A DNA stretch of 64,000 nt from Brettanomyces bruxellensis (taxonomy: Eukaryota; Ascomycota; Pichiomycetes; Pichiales; Pichiaceae), in contig NC_054690.1 in NCBI RefSeq assembly GCF_011074885.1, positions 2,733,001-2,797,000 of the forward strand, in the 5' to 3' direction. The notes under the pieces were generated by a model. That model was not told the DNA's origin. It searched no databases and saw nothing but the letters and a program-made list of their open reading frames with translations. A program made the translations under genes and the position numbers. Within the stretch, counting starts at the first letter, position 1. Each line of letters opens with the position of its first letter. This document shows, one piece after another, positions 19,921-52,963 of the stretch.

Positions 19921-22900
19921 TTATTTAAGACCCTTGAGGATCTTCTCTTTCTGCTTAGCAGGAAGCAACGACATTATTTCTGCTAATCCTTCGGCAGTGT
20001 GCTTTGGATCGATCTTGAAGAGACGTGCGAGTTTTTGTTTCACAGCATCACCCTTCAACTTCTTAATCTGAGATTCTAGATTCTTGTGATTCTCTTCTAT
20101 CCACAAGGCGACCTCACGATCGTTCTTTGTATTCAACGTTGATGGTAACCAAGAATTAAGTCTAGCCACCCTTTCGAGACGTGTGGAGTCCGTAACTTGT
20201 TCTGATATACGTTTAATCAAATACTCTTCATTCAATCTTCTTCTAACTCTCCAGAAAAAGAACCTTCTGGCTTCACGCCATTCCAATTCCTTTCTAATCA
20301 CACCTTTGGCAACCATTCTGTTTGAGCGATCGTGCAAATCTGCAAATTGAATTGACACTTGCTTATAGATAGGCATCAAATGATAATGACGATCATTTAA
20401 CTTCTTCGTTATCTCTGCCTTTTCTGTATCCGAAATGTCAGAGGATTGTAGCTTTGTAGAGTACTCGCGACATTGACCATCAAGACGATCCATTGTCTTC
20501 AGAAGTTTATTTTCCCTGTACTTAATACCAACAAGACCTGCTGGTTCAAGAACACCAGCACGTGATTCCACATCCGCATACATTTCCATCATATTTGGAT
20601 TGATGGTTGGATCAAGAACAACCCATGAACCACCACGAAGCTCTCCAGTAGGAGGGATGTAGACAAATATAGGCTGTTTGTAGTTAACGAAAGCATCCAC
20701 AATGTAAGAACCATACTTCAACACTTCATTATACATATCCCTTTGACCACCGGAGAAGCCACGCCAATTGGCCAAAACCATTAATGGCAATTGTTCACCA
20801 TAGTTAAAATCATTAATAGCCTGGGCAGTCTTAAATGCAGAGTTTGGATACCAAACCTGACCGGCTTCTTGAACCAACAACTCAGTTGATTTAGGATTGG
20901 CTGGATCAGCTGGAATCAAATTCTGAACCGTCTTAGGATTAACAGCAATCACACCCATCGGAATACCTCCCAAACGAGCTCTACCAACAACAACACCACG
21001 TGCCCAACCGGAAAGTGTTTCTTGGAAAGAGTCTTTATCGAACATACCATACTCAAATCCATCTTCAGTGCTACGACCTTCAATAAGCCATTTAGCATCA
21101 TAAAGTTCATCGGCCACAGGCTTAAAATCAATGGCTCTGTCCCATGGATCTTTAGGATCAACAAAAACTGGAACAGGGACACCTCGTTTCGATGGAATAT
21201 AAGATAACCACTTCAGAATCTTTTGAACACCAGAAAGATCATCAACAGCAGTCAAATGAGAGACACCGTTGGTATACATAATCTGAGTACCACCTAATTG
21301 CAAATTTGAAGCGTAAACTTCACGTCCAAGCAATTTGTTGATAGCCCTAGCACCAGTCAAAATAATTGGTTGACCTTCAACTTGAATGGATCTCTCGCCT
21401 AAGCGGACCAAATAAGCACCAATGCCGACACTTCTGCAAGTAACCAAGGTAATAGTAAAGATGTCCTTATATGCACGTGAAGTGGCACCAGCAATCAAGC
21501 CAGAGCCTCTTAAACATTCAACACCAAGACCATCCTCAGCTCCAATAATGGCTTTAATGATATAACGAGTTTCTCCATCTTCGACTATCTTGTCGACAAC
21601 AACCGAATTCCACTTATCCTCCTTTTCTAACGCCTTTTTATCATCATCAGTTAGATACAAGTAGCTGAATCCCTTTGATGGATCTTTGTGATCCAACCAG
21701 GCAACTTTATAGAATGGAAGAAGTTCTTCAGCAATTCCAATACGAGCACCAGAGTTCGCAGCCAAGTAGATTCGAGGAATTCCCAATTTTTCGGCTTTCT
21801 TCGTCACTTTTTCAAAGAAAGAATCCTCCTTAGGCCCGAAGGAACCAATTTGGAATGTAATATCATTAGCAACAATAATGAATTGACGGCCTTTTGAATA
21901 TTCAGGTGTCTTAGCAGTAACAAGGAAGGCCACCATGCCAATAGTATTGGCCCCCGGTTCACGAGAAACAGTTGTTAGCTCTCCAGATTCATCAAGAATC
22001 AATTCCTCATAAGTAAGGAAATTGTCTTTAAATTTCATTCCGGCATCAACCTTCTTCCATTGATCAGAAAGAGCCTGTCTGAATAACTCAGGGAAGTCAT
22101 ACACATACGTTGTTCCCATGCTGTGTGCCTTTTGCCTCTTTGGCTGAAGCCATTCCTTAGTTGGGTATGGGGTGGAGATTGGACGCATATGCATTGAGCC
22201 CGGGGCTCCAATTGACTTGAAAATCCATTCGCCTTTGCTGTTTCTTTCCTCAACATATAACTCCGACTTCACAACGTAACCACTAACGTTATTAATGACA
22301 GCACGCAATGGGAATGGAACACCAGTTTCAGGGTCAGTGCACATAATACGTATTTCTGCACCCGTGACACGGAGTCTCCATAGTCTTCTTCCGAATCTCT
22401 CCAAAAATCCTCCAAACGCATTCTCCACATCCTCTGGGGTGATGTTGAACACGGCAGAAAAGTTAATGAAAATATGATTCATATCTGTGTTAGAAGTATC
22501 CAACACTTCCAAAGTGTCGAGAATATCAGAGATAAGTCTATGAGCCTCTGAAATAAGATATTCCGGAGCAGTAATATCATCCCTTATGGAACCAGTTCTG
22601 ATAATGCCTCTGGTAAAATACCGCTTGTCAACACCAGCAGAATTCTTTGCCACGGCCTCGTAAACATGAATGTTCCGATTATCAGTTGGGATGAGCTTAA
22701 TATTGAAATTCGAAAGACGGCCCAACTCAAGCTGATAAGCCAAAGCTGGCTCAATATGGCGAATAACCTGATCTTCAACATACGGTTTGGCAGGTGACGA
22801 AGTTTTGAAAGTATAATACTTCGGATAGCAGCCAGCCTTATCACCAAGAACAAAAGTGATTCTTCTAATCCGAGCACCGTTGAGATCAGCTCTATTATCA

Positions 22901-25900
22901 TCAACAATCTCCCTCATACGTGACAAAACATGCTCTTGGTCAATATAGCCATCTGTAGAATTGATAACAACATTACAGACATTGATAAGTGAAGATTCAG
23001 AAGTACTGCTCTTAAGCTCCAAGAGACCCTTCGAAAGAGCCTCTTCAGCATCATCCAAATGAGGGGCAGAAACCAGAACACCAGTTCTCAAAGGCTGTTT
23101 ATCATTTTTGCTAATCATGAAGGTAAGATCTGAAACAGAGACGGCACGGTTCATACTTTGGGATGCTGTAGGCTTCCTGAGTGCAGGAGGAACAGCATTA
23201 TATTGAGAAGTAGCAAGACTTGGAAGCTGAAATTTCCAAAGGGCAACAGGCACATTACTCGCAGCAATATTCTTATCGGAGACTAAATGCTTCACTTCAG
23301 TAACGGAATATGCTCGATAAGCGCGACGAATGTAAACCTCGGCAGCAGCAGCAGCAACCCATGGATCGGCGGATGTCAGGAATTGAGTAAGAACATCGAA
23401 AACAGTGTACTTAGAATCAATAATATCGCGAAGGACAGAATCATCAGGCATCTTATGCTCTGCCACCATTGAGCCCTCATACTTGTTGGTGATCACAGAT
23501 GACTTTAAGATGTGCTCCAGCTGATCACAGCGTTCTTTAATAGAAGGCATCGAACATTGAATCAAAATCTCACGGGCCCTTAGAGTGGCCTTAGCAGTAG
23601 TTCTGCTTTCCAAATCAACAAACTTCTTAAGAACAGGCTTAAAAATCTGAACGGCGACAGGCGATTCCTGCAAAACTGGCTGGTAGAAATCGATAATAGC
23701 AATAATGAGATTGTTTTTAGCGGCAATTCTGGAGTGGGAAAGTGCAACATTCACAACCTGGTTGAGGTCATTGTTATACTTATTTCTGAGAGCAAGAATG
23801 ACTTCTTCAGTCCGTGGCTTAGAAGAAGAAAACATGGATTCAACCCTGTAGTACTCTTTAAGCAAGTCGGCAAATGTGGTAAATTCATGGGCAACCAATC
23901 CGTCTTTGTAAGCATCGGCAATTTCAACCAGAGGGGCAATCACCTGGGAGAATATCAACAAGTCTTCTTTAGGAACATCGGTTTTAGATTTCTCAAACAT
24001 CTTCAAGACCTGACGAGCTGGGAATTCTGCAGAACGCTTTTGAGATCTGTCCACCAACTCTCCAAGGGACTGGTCAAGCTTTGGAGGAAGTCTGCTGTGC
24101 AAAGCAGAAATCTTGTGGTTCCACTCGGAATATGGAAGATCCTTTTCCCTAAGAACTTCAACCAGATTTCTGATGGTCGAATCCATAACCATTTGATCGT
24201 CATATCCGGCCAAGATATTTCTTAAGATAGATAAATACTTGTGGTATCTATGCACAGATTGTGTTCCCTCGATAAGTGGAGTACCATAGTCAGGCAAAGT
24301 TCCCTCGAATGACATTGCATGTTTGACCTTTGATGGATCGTCCAGAGCCAAAATTGCAAGAATATCTCCAGCCTTCACAGTACTTCCAGGCTGCTTCAAA
24401 AGCTGAACAGTACCATTCTCCTGAGCCACCAAAGGCATACACATTTTCATCACTTCAACCTCAGCAAACGGTTCACCTGCGTTGACATGGTCACCATTCT
24501 CAACTAGAAACTTAGTTAGCTTACCTGGAGAAGGTGTCCGCAACTGTGTAGGATCATTCTCTTCCTCTAACTGGCACGTCTTTCCATCAATTGAAACCCT
24601 AGTGGAAGCAACCTCATCCTTCCAGTACACAGCGTGCGATTTTCCTCCCAGAGAAAGAAGAAGACCTCCATCACTCAAATGCTTAGCATTGACCTCACAA
24701 CGGGAGCCATTAATAAACAACATGTAAACTCCAAGTCCAGCTTTAGCAACAGTGAACTTGTACTTGTTACCCTCATAGATAAATTCAATATTGAACATTG
24801 TCTTCAGTAACTCCTTTGAAGGAACCTGACCCTTTTCCAATGAAGCCACATACTTCTTTCTGCATGCGCAAGACTGCTGGTAAGCCTTCACAACAGCGCC
24901 GCAAATGACAGCAATAAACTGATCCGGACGTTCGGCCGTCAACTTCTTCGAAATTAATTCATCCAACCAGGCCGTCGTCATAGTATTACCAGAAAAGGCC
25001 GGTGTCTCCAAAAGTCGAATAAGGTATTCAGTGGTAGTTCTGAAATCACCGCGAATAGACAGTTCTTTCAAAGCAACAACCATATGCTTTCTGGAAGCCT
25101 CTCTGTTTTCTCCAAACGCAAAAATATGACCAAACTGTGAGTCCGAAAACGAATGAATTGAAGACGTAGGAACAACAGAGAAATAACCCCAGACGTTTGA
25201 GGATGATCTAAAGTTGAGTTCGTACAATGTACCACCAGATGGCTTGAAACCTTCACTAGGATCCTCAGATGTGATACGACAAGCAGTACAGTGTCCCTTT
25301 GGAACAGGTTTTCTCTGAGTTTTGAGACTGTTTGGATCCTTGAACTCGAAATCAATTGGGGTAGAAGTGTGCGGGTCAACACCGTAAAGTAACCGGATAT
25401 CTTCAAGAAGGTGCATTGGTATACCCATAGCAATTTGTAACTGAGCAACAGGTAAGTTAACACCGGAAACCATTTCGGTTGTTGGATGCTCAACTTGCAA
25501 TCTAGGATTCAACTCAAGAAAGTAAAACTTATCTTCGTCGTGAGAGTACAGATACTCGACAGTACCGGCAGAAACATAACCAACAAGTCTTCCTAAACGA
25601 ATTGCGGCTTGTTCCATCTCATGAAAAGTCTCTGGCCTTGCAATAGTGACCGGAGCCTCCTCCATAATCTTTTGATGCCTTCTCTGAACCGAACAATCTC
25701 TTCCAAACAACGAAATATCGGTTCCGTACTCATCTGCCAACAACTGGACCTCCAAGTGTCTGGCATGAGAAGCCAATCGCATAACAAAAATCGGGGAGCC
25801 CGGAATCTCGGCTGATGCCTGGTGATAGAGTGTAATAAAGTCATCAGGATTATCAACCATACGAATACCCTTACCACCACCACCTTCGGAGGCCTTGATC

Positions 25901-26598
25901 ATAACAGGAAAGCCAATTTTTTGGGCCTTCTTCAAACCATCCTCAGGACTAGTACAACAGCCCTTGGCATATGTCTCGTCATCAACGGAAACTAATCCGG
26001 TTTCTGGATTAACCACCACGTTGCTAACACCAGATCCAGACCATGGAATCGTTGGGACATGAGCATTCTGAGCAACGATTGTGGAAGAAATCTTGTCACC
26101 AAGGGACCTCATGGCTGATGCGGGTGGACCAATAAAGATGATTTTGCGTGAGGAAGCAGCAAGCTTTTCTGGTAGTTCAGGGTTTTCCGAAGCATGACCC
26201 CAACCAGCCCAAACTGCATCGGAATTGGTTCTCTCGGCAAGCTCAACAATCAAATCAACGTTGGCATAGTTGTTGTTGTTCGTACCACCTGGAACCTCAA
26301 CATACTCGTCAGCCATTCTGATATACTCTGCATTTGCCTTGATATCCTCGGGGGTAGCCATGGCTACAAATTGAATGGCATGCTCATCCCCAAACGTTTC
26401 ATAAGCCCATTTACGAACAGATCTGAGCTCTTTAACGGCAGCAATACCATTGTTGGCAATCAACACCTTTCTGATAACCGTGTGACCTTCGTGCTGGATG
26501 ACAAAATCTTTGACAACTGATGGCTCCGCATTCTCAATAGTGTGAAGGCCGATAAAGCTTTTCGGAAGCTTTTTCTGCCTCTCTGTGAGGGTGGCCAT
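19921..26598 (-). CDS. ACC1: Acetyl-CoA carboxylase (cytosolic form)
   Basis: 2225 residues from the ATG at 26598, which has a strong context (AAACATGG) and matches where fungal Acc1 begins. It is the multifunctional eukaryotic type: biotin carboxylase first (ATP-grasp, EGGGGKGIR at about 235), then the biotin carrier segment with EVMKMCMP (biotinyl lysine K718), a long central domain, and the carboxyltransferase domains (GANSGARIG-like and WRGFSGG segments). It makes malonyl-CoA, the committed step of fatty acid synthesis. The frame stays open for 114 codons upstream, including an in-frame ATG at 26784 (separate entry). Two Ino2/Ino4-type elements lie upstream. It appears to be the only ACC gene seen here, so it may serve both cytosol and mitochondria. 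Confidence 0.97.
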   Translation of the reverse strand: MATLTERQKKLPKSFIGLHTIENAEPSVVKDFVIQHEGHTVIRKVLIANNGIAAVKELRSVRKWAYETFGDEHAIQFVAMATPEDIKANAEYIRMADEYVEVPGGTNNNNYANVDLIVELAERTNSDAVWAGWGHASENPELPEKLAASSRKIIFIGPPASAMRSLGDKISSTIVAQNAHVPTIPWSGSGVSNVVVNPETGLVSVDDETYAKGCCTSPEDGLKKAQKIGFPVMIKASEGGGGKGIRMVDNPDDFITLYHQASAEIPGSPIFVMRLASHARHLEVQLLADEYGTDISLFGRDCSVQRRHQKIMEEAPVTIARPETFHEMEQAAIRLGRLVGYVSAGTVEYLYSHDEDKFYFLELNPRLQVEHPTTEMVSGVNLPVAQLQIAMGIPMHLLEDIRLLYGVDPHTSTPIDFEFKDPNSLKTQRKPVPKGHCTACRITSEDPSEGFKPSGGTLYELNFRSSSNVWGYFSVVPTSSIHSFSDSQFGHIFAFGENREASRKHMVVALKELSIRGDFRTTTEYLIRLLETPAFSGNTMTTAWLDELISKKLTAERPDQFIAVICGAVVKAYQQSCACRKKYVASLEKGQVPSKELLKTMFNIEFIYEGNKYKFTVAKAGLGVYMLFINGSRCEVNAKHLSDGGLLLSLGGKSHAVYWKDEVASTRVSIDGKTCQLEEENDPTQLRTPSPGKLTKFLVENGDHVNAGEPFAEVEVMKMCMPLVAQENGTVQLLKQPGSTVKAGDILAILALDDPSKVKHAMSFEGTLPDYGTPLIEGTQSVHRYHKYLSILRNILAGYDDQMVMDSTIRNLVEVLREKDLPYSEWNHKISALHSRLPPKLDQSLGELVDRSQKRSAEFPARQVLKMFEKSKTDVPKEDLLIFSQVIAPLVEIADAYKDGLVAHEFTTFADLLKEYYRVESMFSSSKPRTEEVILALRNKYNNDLNQVVNVALSHSRIAAKNNLIIAIIDFYQPVLQESPVAVQIFKPVLKKFVDLESRTTAKATLRAREILIQCSMPSIKERCDQLEHILKSSVITNKYEGSMVAEHKMPDDSVLRDIIDSKYTVFDVLTQFLTSADPWVAAAAAEVYIRRAYRAYSVTEVKHLVSDKNIAASNVPVALWKFQLPSLATSQYNAVPPALRKPTASQSMNRAVSVSDLTFMISKNDKQPLRTGVLVSAPHLDDAEEALSKGLLELKSSTSESSLINVCNVVINSTDGYIDQEHVLSRMREIVDDNRADLNGARIRRITFVLGDKAGCYPKYYTFKTSSPAKPYVEDQVIRHIEPALAYQLELGRLSNFNIKLIPTDNRNIHVYEAVAKNSAGVDKRYFTRGIIRTGSIRDDITAPEYLISEAHRLISDILDTLEVLDTSNTDMNHIFINFSAVFNITPEDVENAFGGFLERFGRRLWRLRVTGAEIRIMCTDPETGVPFPLRAVINNVSGYVVKSELYVEERNSKGEWIFKSIGAPGSMHMRPISTPYPTKEWLQPKRQKAHSMGTTYVYDFPELFRQALSDQWKKVDAGMKFKDNFLTYEELILDESGELTTVSREPGANTIGMVAFLVTAKTPEYSKGRQFIIVANDITFQIGSFGPKEDSFFEKVTKKAEKLGIPRIYLAANSGARIGIAEELLPFYKVAWLDHKDPSKGFSYLYLTDDDKKALEKEDKWNSVVVDKIVEDGETRYIIKAIIGAEDGLGVECLRGSGLIAGATSRAYKDIFTITLVTCRSVGIGAYLVRLGERSIQVEGQPIILTGARAINKLLGREVYASNLQLGGTQIMYTNGVSHLTAVDDLSGVQKILKWLSYIPSKRGVPVPVFVDPKDPWDRAIDFKPVADELYDAKWLIEGRSTEDGFEYGMFDKDSFQETLSGWARGVVVGRARLGGIPMGVIAVNPKTVQNLIPADPANPKSTELLVQEAGQVWYPNSAFKTAQAINDFNYGEQLPLMVLANWRGFSGGQRDMYNEVLKYGSYIVDAFVNYKQPIFVYIPPTGELRGGSWVVLDPTINPNMMEMYADVESRAGVLEPAGLVGIKYRENKLLKTMDRLDGQCREYSTKLQSSDISDTEKAEITKKLNDRHYHLMPIYKQVSIQFADLHDRSNRMVAKGVIRKELEWREARRFFFWRVRRRLNEEYLIKRISEQVTDSTRLERVARLNSWLPSTLNTKNDREVALWIEENHKNLESQIKKLKGDAVKQKLARLFKIDPKHTAEGLAEIMSLLPAKQKEKILKGLK

Positions 26599-26784
26599 GT
26601 TTCTTTCGATACCGATATTATGATAAAATGTTACCAATGAAAATAGTGAATTTGGCAGATTTCGATTGAATTGGTGATATTTATGGTTGCCGCGGATAGT
26701 ATGAAAGGCAAACCTTTGTAACCTGATGAACGTGAATAAGTGTTTTCTAAATTTCAAATTTCTTGTTAGTAAGGGTAATGCCAT
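26599..26784 (-). other. ACC1: In-frame upstream extension of ACC1: candidate mitochondrial presequence
   Basis: An ATG at 26784 opens 62 codons that run without a stop into the ACC1 ATG. The peptide (starting MALPLLTRNLKFRKHLF) is rich in Arg, Lys, His, Phe and Leu. It has only one acidic residue, near its end, as expected of a matrix-targeting presequence. The upstream ATG context is weak (TTTATGG) and the downstream one strong, which would allow leaky scanning. The open frame reaches back to 26940 without another ATG. In S. cerevisiae mitochondrial Acc is a separate gene, HFA1, started at a non-AUG codon. Here one gene may encode both forms. Confidence 0.6.
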
Positions 26785-26962
26785 AAACGAGAGGCAAATG
26801 CCGTTGAATAAGATCTTCACGTCCGCACCTGTACCGATCCTAACTAAGTTGATCTTTGGAGAACAAAAAATAAATTGAAATAGGGGATTCCAGCAAATCT
26901 TAGCATAAGAAATGAAAACGAAAATATCGTAAAACGGCAAATGAAAACTTCCTGGAAGGTAT

Positions 26963-26972
26963 CACATGAAAA
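26963..26972 (-). promoter_or_regulatory. UAS-INO / ICRE element (proximal)
   Basis: TTTTCATGTG on the minus strand fits WYTTCAYRTG, the Ino2/Ino4 site of phospholipid and fatty acid genes including S. cerevisiae ACC1. It lies 179 bp upstream of the ATG at 26784, inside the candidate leader intron. Confidence 0.55.
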
Positions 26973-27111
26973 CTAACCGTTTATTTATTTCAACCAAAGC
27001 CTTAGGCTCTCTCGGTTTGGAACGAATAACAATAGCAAAATAATGAAAAAAAATAATAATCATCAAATGACGGAAGTGGGAAGTATGCGCGCCCATTCAT
27101 TGCATAGTGGT

Positions 27112-27121
27112 TTTTCACATG
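27112..27121 (+). promoter_or_regulatory. UAS-INO / ICRE element (distal)
   Basis: TTTTCACATG, an exact match to the best-known ICRE, 328 bp upstream of the ATG at 26784 and also within the candidate leader intron. Confidence 0.6.
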
Positions 27122-28844
27122 TTAAGCGCGTCTCGCGAAGTTGACGGTTGGAACAACGCTGGATATAATAGGAAGACAAAGAAATCAAAAGGAAACTGTG
27201 CTGATTGACAAAGATGGAAGTTGTGAAGAAAGAACAACGTTATAGGATATACTTACCTCAATAAAAAGTTCCTTGGATGGAGGGAGGCAATGTAATGTGA
27301 ATGTATCGAAATTCCTAGTGAATGGAAGATCAATATGATATGCACAAACGAATCACAAAAACTTAACGAGATTCAAGTTATAGATTGTCTGTCCCAGTTG
27401 AAAAAGGGAAAGGAAATATAAATAGTTATAGCTGATAAAGCTGATTGATTATTCAAGGCAATAAACAGCCAGTGCTGATCGTTAAAATAAAAAGGCTCTT
27501 CTGTAAGTAATGAAATTCCACAGATCGGATGGTGAAAAAAATCTGAGGATTCAATGGGAATAGAACAGAAAAGGTAGCACAACTAGCCGAATATGTAATA
27601 TTAGGTGCTTCTATCAGTAATCCGTACAAATACGTATAATGCAAAGTTACACTTAACTAAGCCTAAATCAATTGATAAGTGGACAGAATTAATTGTATAT
27701 ATATATACGCATGTATATCTGATTGACATTTTAGTAGGCGGGGTCAACTTTCGAGAATCTTGTTGAGTAATGCGGGAGATGCTCAAAACTCTAAAGTGAA
27801 GCGAATTTTCAAGGGTGGAGAAAAAAAAAAAAAAATAAAAAATAGTATAGAAATCTGAAGTTGGAGACTAAATGTTTGTCAAAACCCTTAATACCACCTA
27901 TATGCGTCTTTAATGTTTTCCTTAAAGGCATAATTCAAATATATTTGGTCAACGACTCCTAGTATAAATCTATGAGCATGTAGATTTGATACGTAATCAA
28001 GAAAATAATGTAACTGACTTTGACGATGCAAATATAGTGATCAAATATTTGTCTTACTATTTAATTCAGATACACAGGGATTCCAGTTTCATTATTAGAT
28101 CTCTATTGCGTACTAACTATCCACTACGACTAAGCCGCAACTACAGCAATCTCCAGCTTATGAGTGATCAAATTTTTACCGGTACTATGATCAGAATGTT
28201 TTCTTCAAAAAATATATTGCAATGAGTTAAGGACCTTTGGTTTGTTTTGATCGTTTAATGACTACTCTGTTCCATGCTTTCACCCTTACGTCAGAAATGG
28301 AAAATATATATATTTTTCAGGTAATCGGATTTAGCCTATATTTGGTAAGCAGAATTTCTCCCAACAAATTCTGCCAACAAAAAAAAATTGTGTCAAAGGA
28401 GAACAGAGGGAAAAGAATGAACGTTTTTACCTTGGCTTATTCAATTGGTACAGCATATGAGCTTTTTTACTCCAGTTCTGGAATAAAAGTTCAATAAACT
28501 TTATTATCAATAATTCCTCCAGGATTTGGAACTTATATTTATGTCACTTTAGACCTAAGAACTGTTTGTAGATATCTTGTGTAACACACAACCTTGAAAC
28601 AAAGAACTGTGATCTTTTTTGAAATTGCATAATGGAATTCGGCTCTCGCGTTCGATTATTTTTTGGTGTAATGTTTCTCATACAGCGCACAGCCTTTCAG
28701 AAATAATGTATGACTAGTTCCATTCTAATTAACTGCTTTTCATGAATGATTTACAGCTTCGTTACCAGACGAGTGGGAGAAAAATCAAACCTTTTTAGAT
28801 AATATATATTTAAACAAACTGGTAGGAGTCTGTGAATAACTATT

Positions 28845-49585: not shown

Positions 49586-52500
49586 ATGACCGTTTTTATT
49601 GCATCATTGTAAGTTATGATTGCGAATTTCACAAAAATAGTAAATACCATTGAGTTTTTTCACAATTTTAGAATAGAACATACTAACCGTTTATAATTTT
49701 ATTCCAGATTCCTTCCCTACACAATTCACTTTGAAGTGGAGAGATCGAAAATCCCAAAGCTTGCAGGTGATGAGATGATTGAACCAATTGGCCCAATAAA
49801 TACAAACTATTCGTCATCTTCCGAGGGAAAGATCGCTACTACTGATAATGGGATCCGTCGATTTCAAGGAACGAAGGTGAAGGACACTGACAATTCCGCA
49901 GGCTCGGAAGAATCGACCGTTTCAATATTGAAGACTCTTGCTAATAGTAATCCGGCCACAAAGTCGTCTGAAGATTTGGAATGTGGATCTGTGTCAAGCA
50001 CTGATACAGATATGGAGTCGGAAATCAAAGAAAGACAGCAGCGGCAGAGATCACAACTGGGAGCAATTTCAAATGCATCAGGTGTGGTGTCCGTGCAGGA
50101 TTTTTTCTTTAACAATCCTAATAGTTCAAGGCTATCATTAAGCTCTGCATCATTAAACGATTCTCGATTGTGCTCTTCAACAGATTACTTGGGATCCAGT
50201 GTTCCCGAGCCATTCTATACAAACGAGCCATTGTCTTTGCAGGGCAACTTATCCACAAATAAAAAAGTCTACGTGAGGCCTAGGCCGTTTACTTTTCATA
50301 ACTCATCAATGGGTGACTTGACATTACGTCCCGGCGTGGATCGACACAGACCGACTCGAAGTTTTGTGGGAAGCTTGGGGAAAACTTTGTTATCAAGAAA
50401 ATTTACAAAATCCAGTCTATCGTCACAGAAGTCTCCATTTGATAGTAAAAAGGGTTTTGAAGGAGATGGAGATACAGCAGAGCTAACAATTGATCCGCAA
50501 ACTTCTCCGGATTCTGGTAGTTCGGTAGAACAATGCAAAATATCAGACCATACACAATCTCTGAAGCCGGCATCAGGGGATAAAGCTGATAAGGAACTTG
50601 ATGCATACTTTGCTGATAAGACGGATAGTGGGCATGTGATACCATTCGGTGGATTTGCAAAGGATTATGGATCGATACTCGAAGATAAAAACAATGTATT
50701 TGCTACTGCTCCTTGGAAAGTTGTTACATACGAGCATGGAAATGGCGGACTTCGCAATGCCGTGAGATTGGCCGAGAGTAAAAATAAACTTCGGGAAGTA
50801 AAATGGATTGGTACACCTGGCATGCCATGCGACTTGGTACCAAAATGTACAAGAAAAGCAATTTATAAAACATTGAAGGAGGATTATGATTCAGAAACTT
50901 TATTTATAGAGGACAATGTTTTTGAAGGTCACTATGACAGATATTGCAAGCAAATATTGTGGCCGATGCTTCAGTACCAGTTACCAGAGGAGCTAAAGGC
51001 AAATTCATTTATTAATTATTCATGGGAAGACTATGTTTATGTTAATCGTCAATTTGCCGACAGAATTTCAAATCTTTATAAAAAGGGAGACGTAATCTGG
51101 ATTCATGACTATCATTTGATGCTTGTTCCGGGAATGCTTCGTAAATCTTTGCCTAATGCTGAGATTGGCTTCTTTCTGCATGTATCATTTCCATCCAGTG
51201 AGGTATTCAGATGTCTCGCTCAACGTGAAAAGATATTAAAGGGCATGCTTGGTGCAGATTGTATTGGCATGCAAACAGATGAATACGTAGCTCATTTTCT
51301 TCAAAGCTGTAATAGACTTCTTTTGGCTGATTTCGATGAGCATGGCGTTCGTTATGATAATCGAACAATAAGTGTTACTCATAATCCAATTGGAATTGAT
51401 GCACATGCGTTACGAAAAGTTCTTAATGGTGAGGTGGTGAGAAATTGGAGAAGTTTGGTGAGGGAAAGATGGCCAGACAAGACATTAATTGTATCCCGTG
51501 ATAAAATAGATAAAATACGTGGTGTGAAGGAAAAGCTTTTGGCTTATGAAAGGTTTCTTACAGAAAATCCAGAGTACATAGAGACGACACTACTCATTCT
51601 AATATGCATACCTGGAAGAGCCTCTGCTGATGAGAGAATGGAAAATGAAATTCTTACTATTGTTGAACGAATTAATTCTTGTGCTCCTAATATTGCGAGT
51701 GAAAGACCAGTTGTGGTTTTGAATCAGGATATTCAATTTGAGCAGTATTTAGCGTTGCTAAGTGAAGCCGGCCTTTTTATTGTTTCTACCCTCCGAGAAG
51801 GAATGAATTTGACATGCCATGAATTCGTTGAAGCCTCATATGGGGATCACTCACCATTGATATTGAGTGAATTTGTCGGATCTGCAACTGTTTTATCTGG
51901 AGGGGCATTAATTACAAATCCTTACAATATAAAGCAAGTGTCCAACGCTATCAGAACATGTATGCAAATGAGTCCTGACGAAAGAGAACGGAGATGGAAA
52001 GCAATGCATGCGGCAGTGTTAAGGCATGATTCACTTCATTGGACAAGTGAATGTATGCAGAATATTGGGCAAGGGCACAAGCTAAATACAAGTCAGCAAT
52101 CCAGCGATGTGAAGCAGTTGATGTGGTCTCATATTAATGATGCCATTGTGAAAAGTGCAAAAGCTAACAAATCAAGCACGCTTCATTCTCGAATATTTTT
52201 CATTAACTTTAATGAGTTGATTTCAAATTTAAAGATTCAGGGAACTTCTATTAATCCAATTCAACAGAGATTCATGGATAACATCTTGAACAATCTTGCG
52301 GCAGATAAAACAAATGCGATTTATTTACTTGGATCGTCTACAAGATCTGATATGTGGATGAGATGTCGCAGTTTAATTGATATTGGCCTTATAGCTGAGA
52401 GTGGTGCCTATGTGAAACTCACTGATAAATCTGAGTTCACACCCTTGATATCAAATAAAATGCTCTCCTGGGTTAGTGCTGTGGAGCAGACAATGAAATC

Positions 52501-52963
52501 ATGGAGTGAACGTATTCCCGGAACATATGTTGAAAAGGAAACCTGTGTCGTAAAACTGCACACGGAAGGTAGTCATGATATTGATAAAGAGCATAAAGAA
52601 AAGTTGATCGGAGAGTTAATGACACATATAAATGAGCTTTATGGACATGACTATAATGTCCATGCCAAAATTGTTGATCAGATCATTATAGTAAGACAGA
52701 TGGATTCTATTACGAAAGCTTTGGACTACATCATAAAACAAGGAACACAGATTGGTGGAATAAATAACATTTCGTTTATTATGGTTGCAGGGGGTACCAG
52801 TCCTGATGACGAAGAGCTTTACAGCTATTTTAATAGCACTCGAAATAAGTTTAATGGTAATGTTTTAAATGTCGAAGTTGGTGTTTCGAAAAAAAGCACG
52901 AGCGCAGATTTTAAATTGCAGGGTGTCAACCATTTACTGATAGCATTATCACAAATTTCTTGA
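49586..52963 (+). CDS. TPS3: Trehalose synthase complex regulatory subunit (Tps3/Tsl1), two exons
   Basis: Exon 1 (49586-49608) and exon 2 (49708-52963) join to 1092 residues. The join restores the N-terminus MTVFIASLFLPYTIHFE, nearly identical to that of yeast Tps3. Without splicing the first in-frame ATG is at 49775. A 300-residue Ser-rich region follows, then a GT20 glucosyltransferase-like domain (about 340-800, with VIWIHDYHLMLVPGMLR, FFLHVSFPSSEVFRCL, LREGMNLTCHEFV) and a phosphatase-like domain. The phosphatase motif DxDG(T/V) is replaced by FINFNEL (near residue 830), so catalysis there is unlikely, as in Tps3/Tsl1. The protein stabilises and regulates the Tps1-Tps2 complex in the cytosol. 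Confidence 0.9.
49609..49707 (+). other. TPS3: Intron of TPS3
   Basis: 99 bp: donor TT|GTAAGT, branch point TACTAAC (49681-49687), acceptor TTCCAG ending at 49707, the first AG after the branch point. The codon TT|A (Leu) is split. The joined protein matches the conserved family N-terminus, strong support for the model. Confidence 0.9.

Follow-up and report, generated by a model that had tools for sequence, protein, structure and literature searches.

A putative leader intron of ACC1 in Brettanomyces bruxellensis and the possible supply of cytosolic and mitochondrial acetyl-CoA carboxylase by a single gene

The ACC1 locus and the signals of its leader

The window analysed here is a stretch of 64,000 nucleotides from Brettanomyces bruxellensis, taken from a contig of 3.85 Mb in a genome that totals 13.1 Mb and nine contigs. 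An open reading frame on its minus strand (26784-19921) encodes acetyl-CoA carboxylase (ACC). Counted from the AUG at 26598, residues 6-2225 match residues 2-2212 of chain 5csk_A (Acetyl-CoA carboxylase) with 3415.7 bits. A genome search with the N-terminal 866 aa of ACC1 gave nine matches, one of which was full and identical, and the other eight were partial (19-46% identity); a second, HFA1-like copy of ACC was not found with this query. A biotin-carboxylase-like match (L002, G000:C7:79040-80488) contains one TAG and one TAA in its matched part, and the open frame of that locus has 974 codons. Brettanomyces nanus is the nearest named full-length yeast relative among the best 120 of 4520 ACC proteins. 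In a quick tree of 54 proteins, the near-identical allele P0001 groups with P0002 and B. nanus (SH-aLRT 100). The features of the locus are collected in Table 1.

Table 1. Features of the ACC1 locus and its leader (positions in the window)
Position	Strand	Feature	Basis or remark
19921..26598	-	ACC1 coding region, 2225 aa from the cytosolic start AUG 26598	5csk_A match; single full genome match
26599..26746	-	Exon 2 leader, AUG-free; presequence residues if read from 26784	Sequence
26599..26784	-	Presequence frame with its own AUG 26784, 62 codons in frame	Translation
26747..26751	-	3' splice site TTTAG (AATTTAG); AG within presequence Arg codon AGA	Sequence
26747..27256	-	Putative leader intron, 510 nt	Splice signals
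26765..26771	-	Branch point TACTAAC, in codons TTA CTA ACA (Leu-Leu-Thr) of the presequence frame	Sequence
26904..27120	-	Seven intron upstream AUGs (27120, 27105, 27100, 27096, 27063, 26967, 26906), with stops before 26784	Sequence
27112..27122	-	ACATGTGAAAA, intronic match to the Ino2/Ino4 (ICRE) consensus	Weak internal-promoter lead
27249..27256	-	5' splice site GTAAGTAT, context TGAG/GTAAGTAT (slash, splice junction)	Sequence
27257..27711	-	AUG-free exon 1 region; in the spliced RNA the open ACC1 frame would reach up to 27372	Sequence
27696..27707	-	TATATATATATA run that may act as a TATA element for the long transcript	Function inferred

The first-pass annotation had proposed a leader intron upstream of ACC1, and its donor, branch point, acceptor and two AUGs all lie where it had placed them, with the branch point indeed inside codons of the presequence frame. 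The donor is the sole GTRNGT between 28000 and 26598, the branch point is the sole CTRAY between 27256 and 26598, and the three signals are at a workable spacing for a spliceosomal leader intron. The 62 presequence codons are divided into 12 in the intron, one across the acceptor and 49 in exon 2. The arrangement GTAWGT, TACTAAC and YAG within 1 kb occurs four times in the window and ten times in 200 kb more, whereas simulated sequence (both strands, mean of 10 simulation runs) gave 0.6 and 3.4, respectively, so that 14 arrangements were observed against 4.0 in 264 kb. Arithmetic from the simulated counts gives about 0.005 arrangements (0.5%) for a leader of 700 nt. Of the 14 arrangements, six lie near the start of an open reading frame of at least 150 aa, and ACC1 is the only one whose longest open reading frame begins inside the intron. 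These signals point to splicing of the leader intron in ACC1 RNA. Elsewhere in the window, a 99-nt leader-intron signature on the plus strand (49609-49707; GTAAGTTA, TACTAAC, TTCCAG) is found 67 nt before the open reading frame 49775-52963 (+), which encodes glycosyltransferase family 20 and trehalose-phosphatase domains.

The distribution of AUGs was compared between the exons and the intron. As had been claimed for the spliced RNA, no AUG is present in it from 27711 down to 26598, while the intron contains eight against 7.1 expected. The AUG-free 603 nt of the spliced leader have P = 0.0002 under an order-2 model of the upstream sequence of this genome, an optimistic value because the stretch was chosen to start just below the last upstream ATG. 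Such an avoidance of AUG, confined to the exons, is predicted by splicing, with the 148-nt exon 2 part alone being AUG-free by chance at P = 0.12.

The presequence frame and the choice of start codon

The 62 residues encoded between AUG 26784 and AUG 26598 are stop-free and, as first described, basic and nearly acid-free (10 Lys/Arg, one acidic residue, net charge +9). The chance of 62 stop-free codons is P = 0.025, and an equally basic and acid-poor composition is found in 3.7% of 622 translated non-coding 62-mers and in 2.2% of 90 real N-termini of open reading frames. The helical moment of the presequence is not above that of shuffled sequences (P = 0.37), and an amphipathic-helix signal was discarded on this count. 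The initial description of a "typical" matrix-targeting signal was therefore too strong, and the segment is modestly presequence-like by composition. The window and P0001 differ at 2 of 62 residues in the presequence, 3 of 2225 in the body of the protein and 2 of 51 in the frame further upstream, so that the presequence peptide is without visible constraint in this pair. Starts of machine-predicted proteins may be wrong; at the position of the first Met of P0001, for instance, a Leu codon is found in the window.

All of these values could be accommodated by a plain 5' UTR intron that regulates or enhances ACC1, with the upstream frame arising by chance and no mitochondrial form produced from it, and the leader-intron signature before the open reading frame at 49775 fits such a role as well. 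This explanation is nevertheless improbable, since N-terminal extensions recur in ACC proteins: among the best 120 of 4520 proteins, 45 of the 119 that could be anchored extend by 15 residues or more upstream of the presumed cytosolic Met, which was assigned by a simple criterion that fails for a few proteins. Moreover, PMC4263661 describes the extension of Kluyveromyces lactis ACC as functional. A FabF-type condensing enzyme on C6 (509 bits), apart from a weaker match on C8, together with the lack of a second ACC in the search described above, suggests a need for ACC in the matrix. The weaker C8 match would represent type I FAS and the FabF-type enzyme would belong to mitochondrial FAS.

Other genes were inspected for similar layouts. 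In the FabF/CEM1-like gene (L030, G000:C6:1216443-1217738), the first in-frame AUG lies directly before the enzyme domain (MSQRVV), and the basic in-frame residues above it are themselves without an AUG; its mitochondrial signal may be non-AUG, intron-borne or absent. One gene for biotin ligase was found in the genome (L029, G000:C2:86482-87321). It has an AUG-started, basic extension of 50 residues before the second Met, so that another enzyme of this pathway is a candidate for dual targeting, and no TACTAAC occurs over the whole locus. A hidden mitochondrial form of biotin ligase was proposed on the same grounds in PMC4263661. The genes of ValRS, HisRS and AlaRS (L032, L034 and L036) have dual-targeting layouts of the ordinary kind and resemble ACC1 in that an in-frame upstream AUG adds a basic extension. 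Dual targeting is familiar for synthetases of these types, in part from PMC4263661. Unlike in ACC1, no TACTAAC was found in the three genes over a stretch that runs from the locus edge, 957-1356 nt upstream of the frame, through the first 600 nt of the frame itself; the choice of start in them would rest on the transcription start or on leaky scanning. The ACC1 arrangement is thus not the local default, and a leader intron as a general dual-targeting device was rejected, given the absence of TACTAAC from the searched stretches of the three synthetases and biotin ligase.

The route by which AUG 26784 could be reached was then considered. According to the first-pass annotation, either unspliced RNA or RNA started inside the intron would use this AUG. 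The former route needs revision, as seven intronic AUGs precede 26784 and open frames, among them ones of 44, 33, 32 and 20 codons, that all reach a stop before it, and RNA that retains the intron would be a poor source of the long form. Regulated intron retention, in which unspliced RNA of full length reaches the cytoplasm and is read from AUG 26784, would use the same anatomy and make a second promoter unnecessary. The seven AUGs should however block scanning and invite decay, and retention is very improbable as the main source of the mitochondrial form. The latter route is the better one if the RNA starts below 26906, the last decoy AUG; transcripts with their 5' ends in the ~120 nt directly upstream of 26784 would be a better source of the long form. 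By the usual rating of start contexts, AUG 26784 is weak, with T at -3 (TCGTTTATGG), and AUG 26598 is strong, with A at -3 (AGAAACATGG). No AUG is present between them, and leaky scanning could therefore yield the long and the short protein from one internal transcript.

Candidate promoter elements were also noted. The run TATATATATATA could contribute to transcription of the long RNA and ACATGTGAAAA to that of the short RNA. The genome contains 34 exact matches to the Ino2/Ino4 (ICRE) pattern of ACATGTGAAAA, no more than the 43 of its reversed control; ACATGTGAAAA was thus rejected as proof of an internal promoter and is kept as a lead.

Imprint of the branch point in ACC proteins of other yeasts

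One of the three frames of ACTAAC has a stop, so a branch point located in a presequence is readable only as ACT-AAC (Thr-Asn, TN) or N-CTA-ACN (Leu-Thr, LT). These dipeptides were counted in 36 ACC proteins, namely the 38 with at least 30 residues above the cytosolic start minus two copies of P0049; three proteins were trimmed at an inner start and P0001 was cut to AUG 26784. Within the first 25 residues, TN is present in 18 of the 36 proteins against 5.96 expected, a value reached by none of 4000 shuffles, and LT in 17 against 7.8, counts that are to be read with the idea and the test sharing the same proteins. In a z-like ranking of the enrichment of dipeptides, TN is first and LT fourth, and the reversed dipeptides are not enriched (NT, 7 vs 6.1; TL, 5 vs 7.7).

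Clades were taken from the 54-protein tree, and the grouping covers 34 of the 36 proteins; it sets aside P0022, a Kuraishia protein with TN, and P0103, which has a long branch. In the CUG-Ser clade, 15 of 18 proteins have TN in the first 25 residues (shuffle mean 2.95; 0 of 20000 shuffles reach this); for this and the other counts, kinship makes the proteins dependent on one another, which shuffling does not correct. The misses are P0067, P0084 and P0043; in P0043 TN comes later, after an inner Met, and two of the 18 presequences are without TN anywhere. LT is mildly raised in this clade (8/18 vs 3.9, P = 0.02). In the Pichiaceae, all seven proteins, including the window's own allele P0001, have LT in the first eight residues (shuffle mean 0.40; reached by 0 of 20000 shuffles). 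Nine extensions of the Saccharomycetaceae/Saccharomycodaceae type carry no imprint, with TN in 2/9 and LT in 2/9, which is the chance level. In the cytosolic part of the proteins, TN and LT are not significantly enriched (4/18, P = 0.06 and 1/7, P = 0.31, respectively).

The imprint sits a few codons past the predicted first Met in the Pichiaceae and CUG-clade proteins, and TN is preceded by different residues (L, H, N, I, T, R, F, V). The two clades keep different dipeptides, which correspond to both readable frames of one DNA motif, and this is unlike a conserved peptide. In 18 of 36 proteins, against 3.8 expected (0/3000), TN or LT precedes by at most nine residues an Arg whose preceding codon can end in a pyrimidine, as an acceptor YAG/A would require. 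Two tests of codon capability were set aside as uninformative: residues with no codon ending in T before TN (2/19, both Met at position 1) and residues with no codon ending in a pyrimidine before the next Arg (1/19) are no fewer than the background of 10-11%. The spacing from TN to the next Arg has a median of 4 against 6.9, a marginal difference (P = 0.05), and the mean spacing is not different (P = 0.60). Searches for more relatives with the presequence regions as queries returned four and three matches, none of them new.

These patterns suggest that ACTAAC codons lie behind the TN and LT of the relatives. A leader intron of this kind, branching within presequence codons, probably has an ancient origin, and the same arrangement was probably ancestral to the Pichiaceae and the CUG-Ser-clade yeasts; the apparent imprint is what this analysis adds.

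Proposed mechanism, published ACC systems and evolutionary reading

A single ACC1 gene likely serves both the cytosol and the mitochondria by means of the leader intron, through spliced long RNAs and internally started RNAs. Long transcripts would start above 27256 and be spliced, which would take out AUG 26784 with the first presequence codons, and ribosomes would scan the AUG-free leader to AUG 26598 and produce cytosolic Acc1. Other transcripts are predicted to start within the intron, between 26905 and 26785. Such transcripts would be without the 5' splice site and so could not be spliced; they would keep AUG 26784, give presequence-ACC for the matrix and also yield some cytosolic enzyme from AUG 26598. 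The branch point and the acceptor would double as presequence codons. The original proposal of one gene making both enzymes is thus favoured by the AUG-free spliced leader, the single ACC and the imprint, and the unspliced-RNA route that formed part of it needs to be corrected.

Upstream mitochondrial signals of ACC are already known. They are listed in Table 4 of PMC4263661 for several species, including K. waltii, K. lactis, A. gossypii and P. pastoris, and in the same paper the complementation of hfa1 by K. lactis ACC required the upstream region of the gene. In the HFA1/ACC1 systems of PMC4263661 and PMC2704937, one ancestral gene carries a targeting signal upstream of, and in frame with, the cytosolic AUG, to which the 62-codon frame of B. 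bruxellensis may correspond; as in non-WGD yeasts a single ACC is found, and the mitochondrial form has been shown genetically for K. lactis (PMC4263661). The published start is non-AUG, whereas the presequence in B. bruxellensis has an AUG, located inside the intron. In PMC4263661, non-AUG initiation is almost always the stated mechanism, the start of S. cerevisiae HFA1 is an AUU at -372, and no evidence for alternative splicing of HFA1 is reported. The word "intron" does not occur in the main text of PMC4263661, and neither "intron" nor "splic" occurs in that of PMC2704937.

The ACC1 of Yarrowia lipolytica (YALI0C11407g) is also a single ACC with a putative targeting signal, and its GFP fusion was punctate and partly overlapped with mitochondria, as stated in parts of PMC5210315. 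The leader introns mentioned in those parts are those of fas1 and fas2. An ACC leader intron was not found in titles and the starts of abstracts or in passages of PMC4263661, PMC5210315, PMC2911113 and PMC2704937, a body of literature mostly outside subscription papers, and such an intron may already be annotated.

An HFA1-like start was weighed for ACC1 of B. bruxellensis, in which the mRNA would always be spliced and a near-cognate codon in exon 1 or 2, in the presequence frame, would initiate the long form. The spliced frame stays open for 88 codons above AUG 26598, into exon 1, and contains a TTG at codon -75 (A at -3), ATT at -68 and -61 and a CTG at -20 (A at -3), which makes such a start possible, and the AUU of HFA1 and the upstream region needed by K. 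lactis ACC (PMC4263661) are precedents for it. The stop-free codons of exon 1 can, however, be due to chance. In the HFA1 type no usable AUG exists for the long form; here AUG 26784 is in frame in the intron, though missing from the spliced RNA. An imprint a few codons past the predicted first Met would be superfluous with a non-AUG start, which is accordingly unlikely.

Under the favoured reading of a spliced long RNA and an internally started RNA, an origin can be tentatively proposed for the non-AUG starts, one that may well prove wrong: an AUG-hiding leader intron would be ancestral to most budding yeasts, with its branch point and acceptor fixed as codons of the presequence, and its loss via spliced mRNA would have led to the non-AUG starts of S. 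cerevisiae HFA1 and K. lactis ACC. Such a loss would delete the AUG and keep the rest of the presequence in frame, so that only near-cognates would be left. The spliced leader of B. bruxellensis, AUG-free and open for 88 codons, resembles the proposed state after intron loss. The absence of the imprint from Saccharomycetaceae-type proteins fits this reading and is not proof of it.

If the proposed mechanism is true, intron removal would determine where in the cell this enzyme, on which fatty acid synthesis depends in both the cytosol and the mitochondria, is placed, and a concrete switch would replace the vague "alternative start" of dual-targeted ACC. A splice signal would constrain a targeting peptide, and the intron would be readable from the protein sequence alone. 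A testable origin would be offered for the non-AUG start of HFA1, and gene models begun at the cytosolic AUG may miss a mitochondrial isoform in many yeasts.
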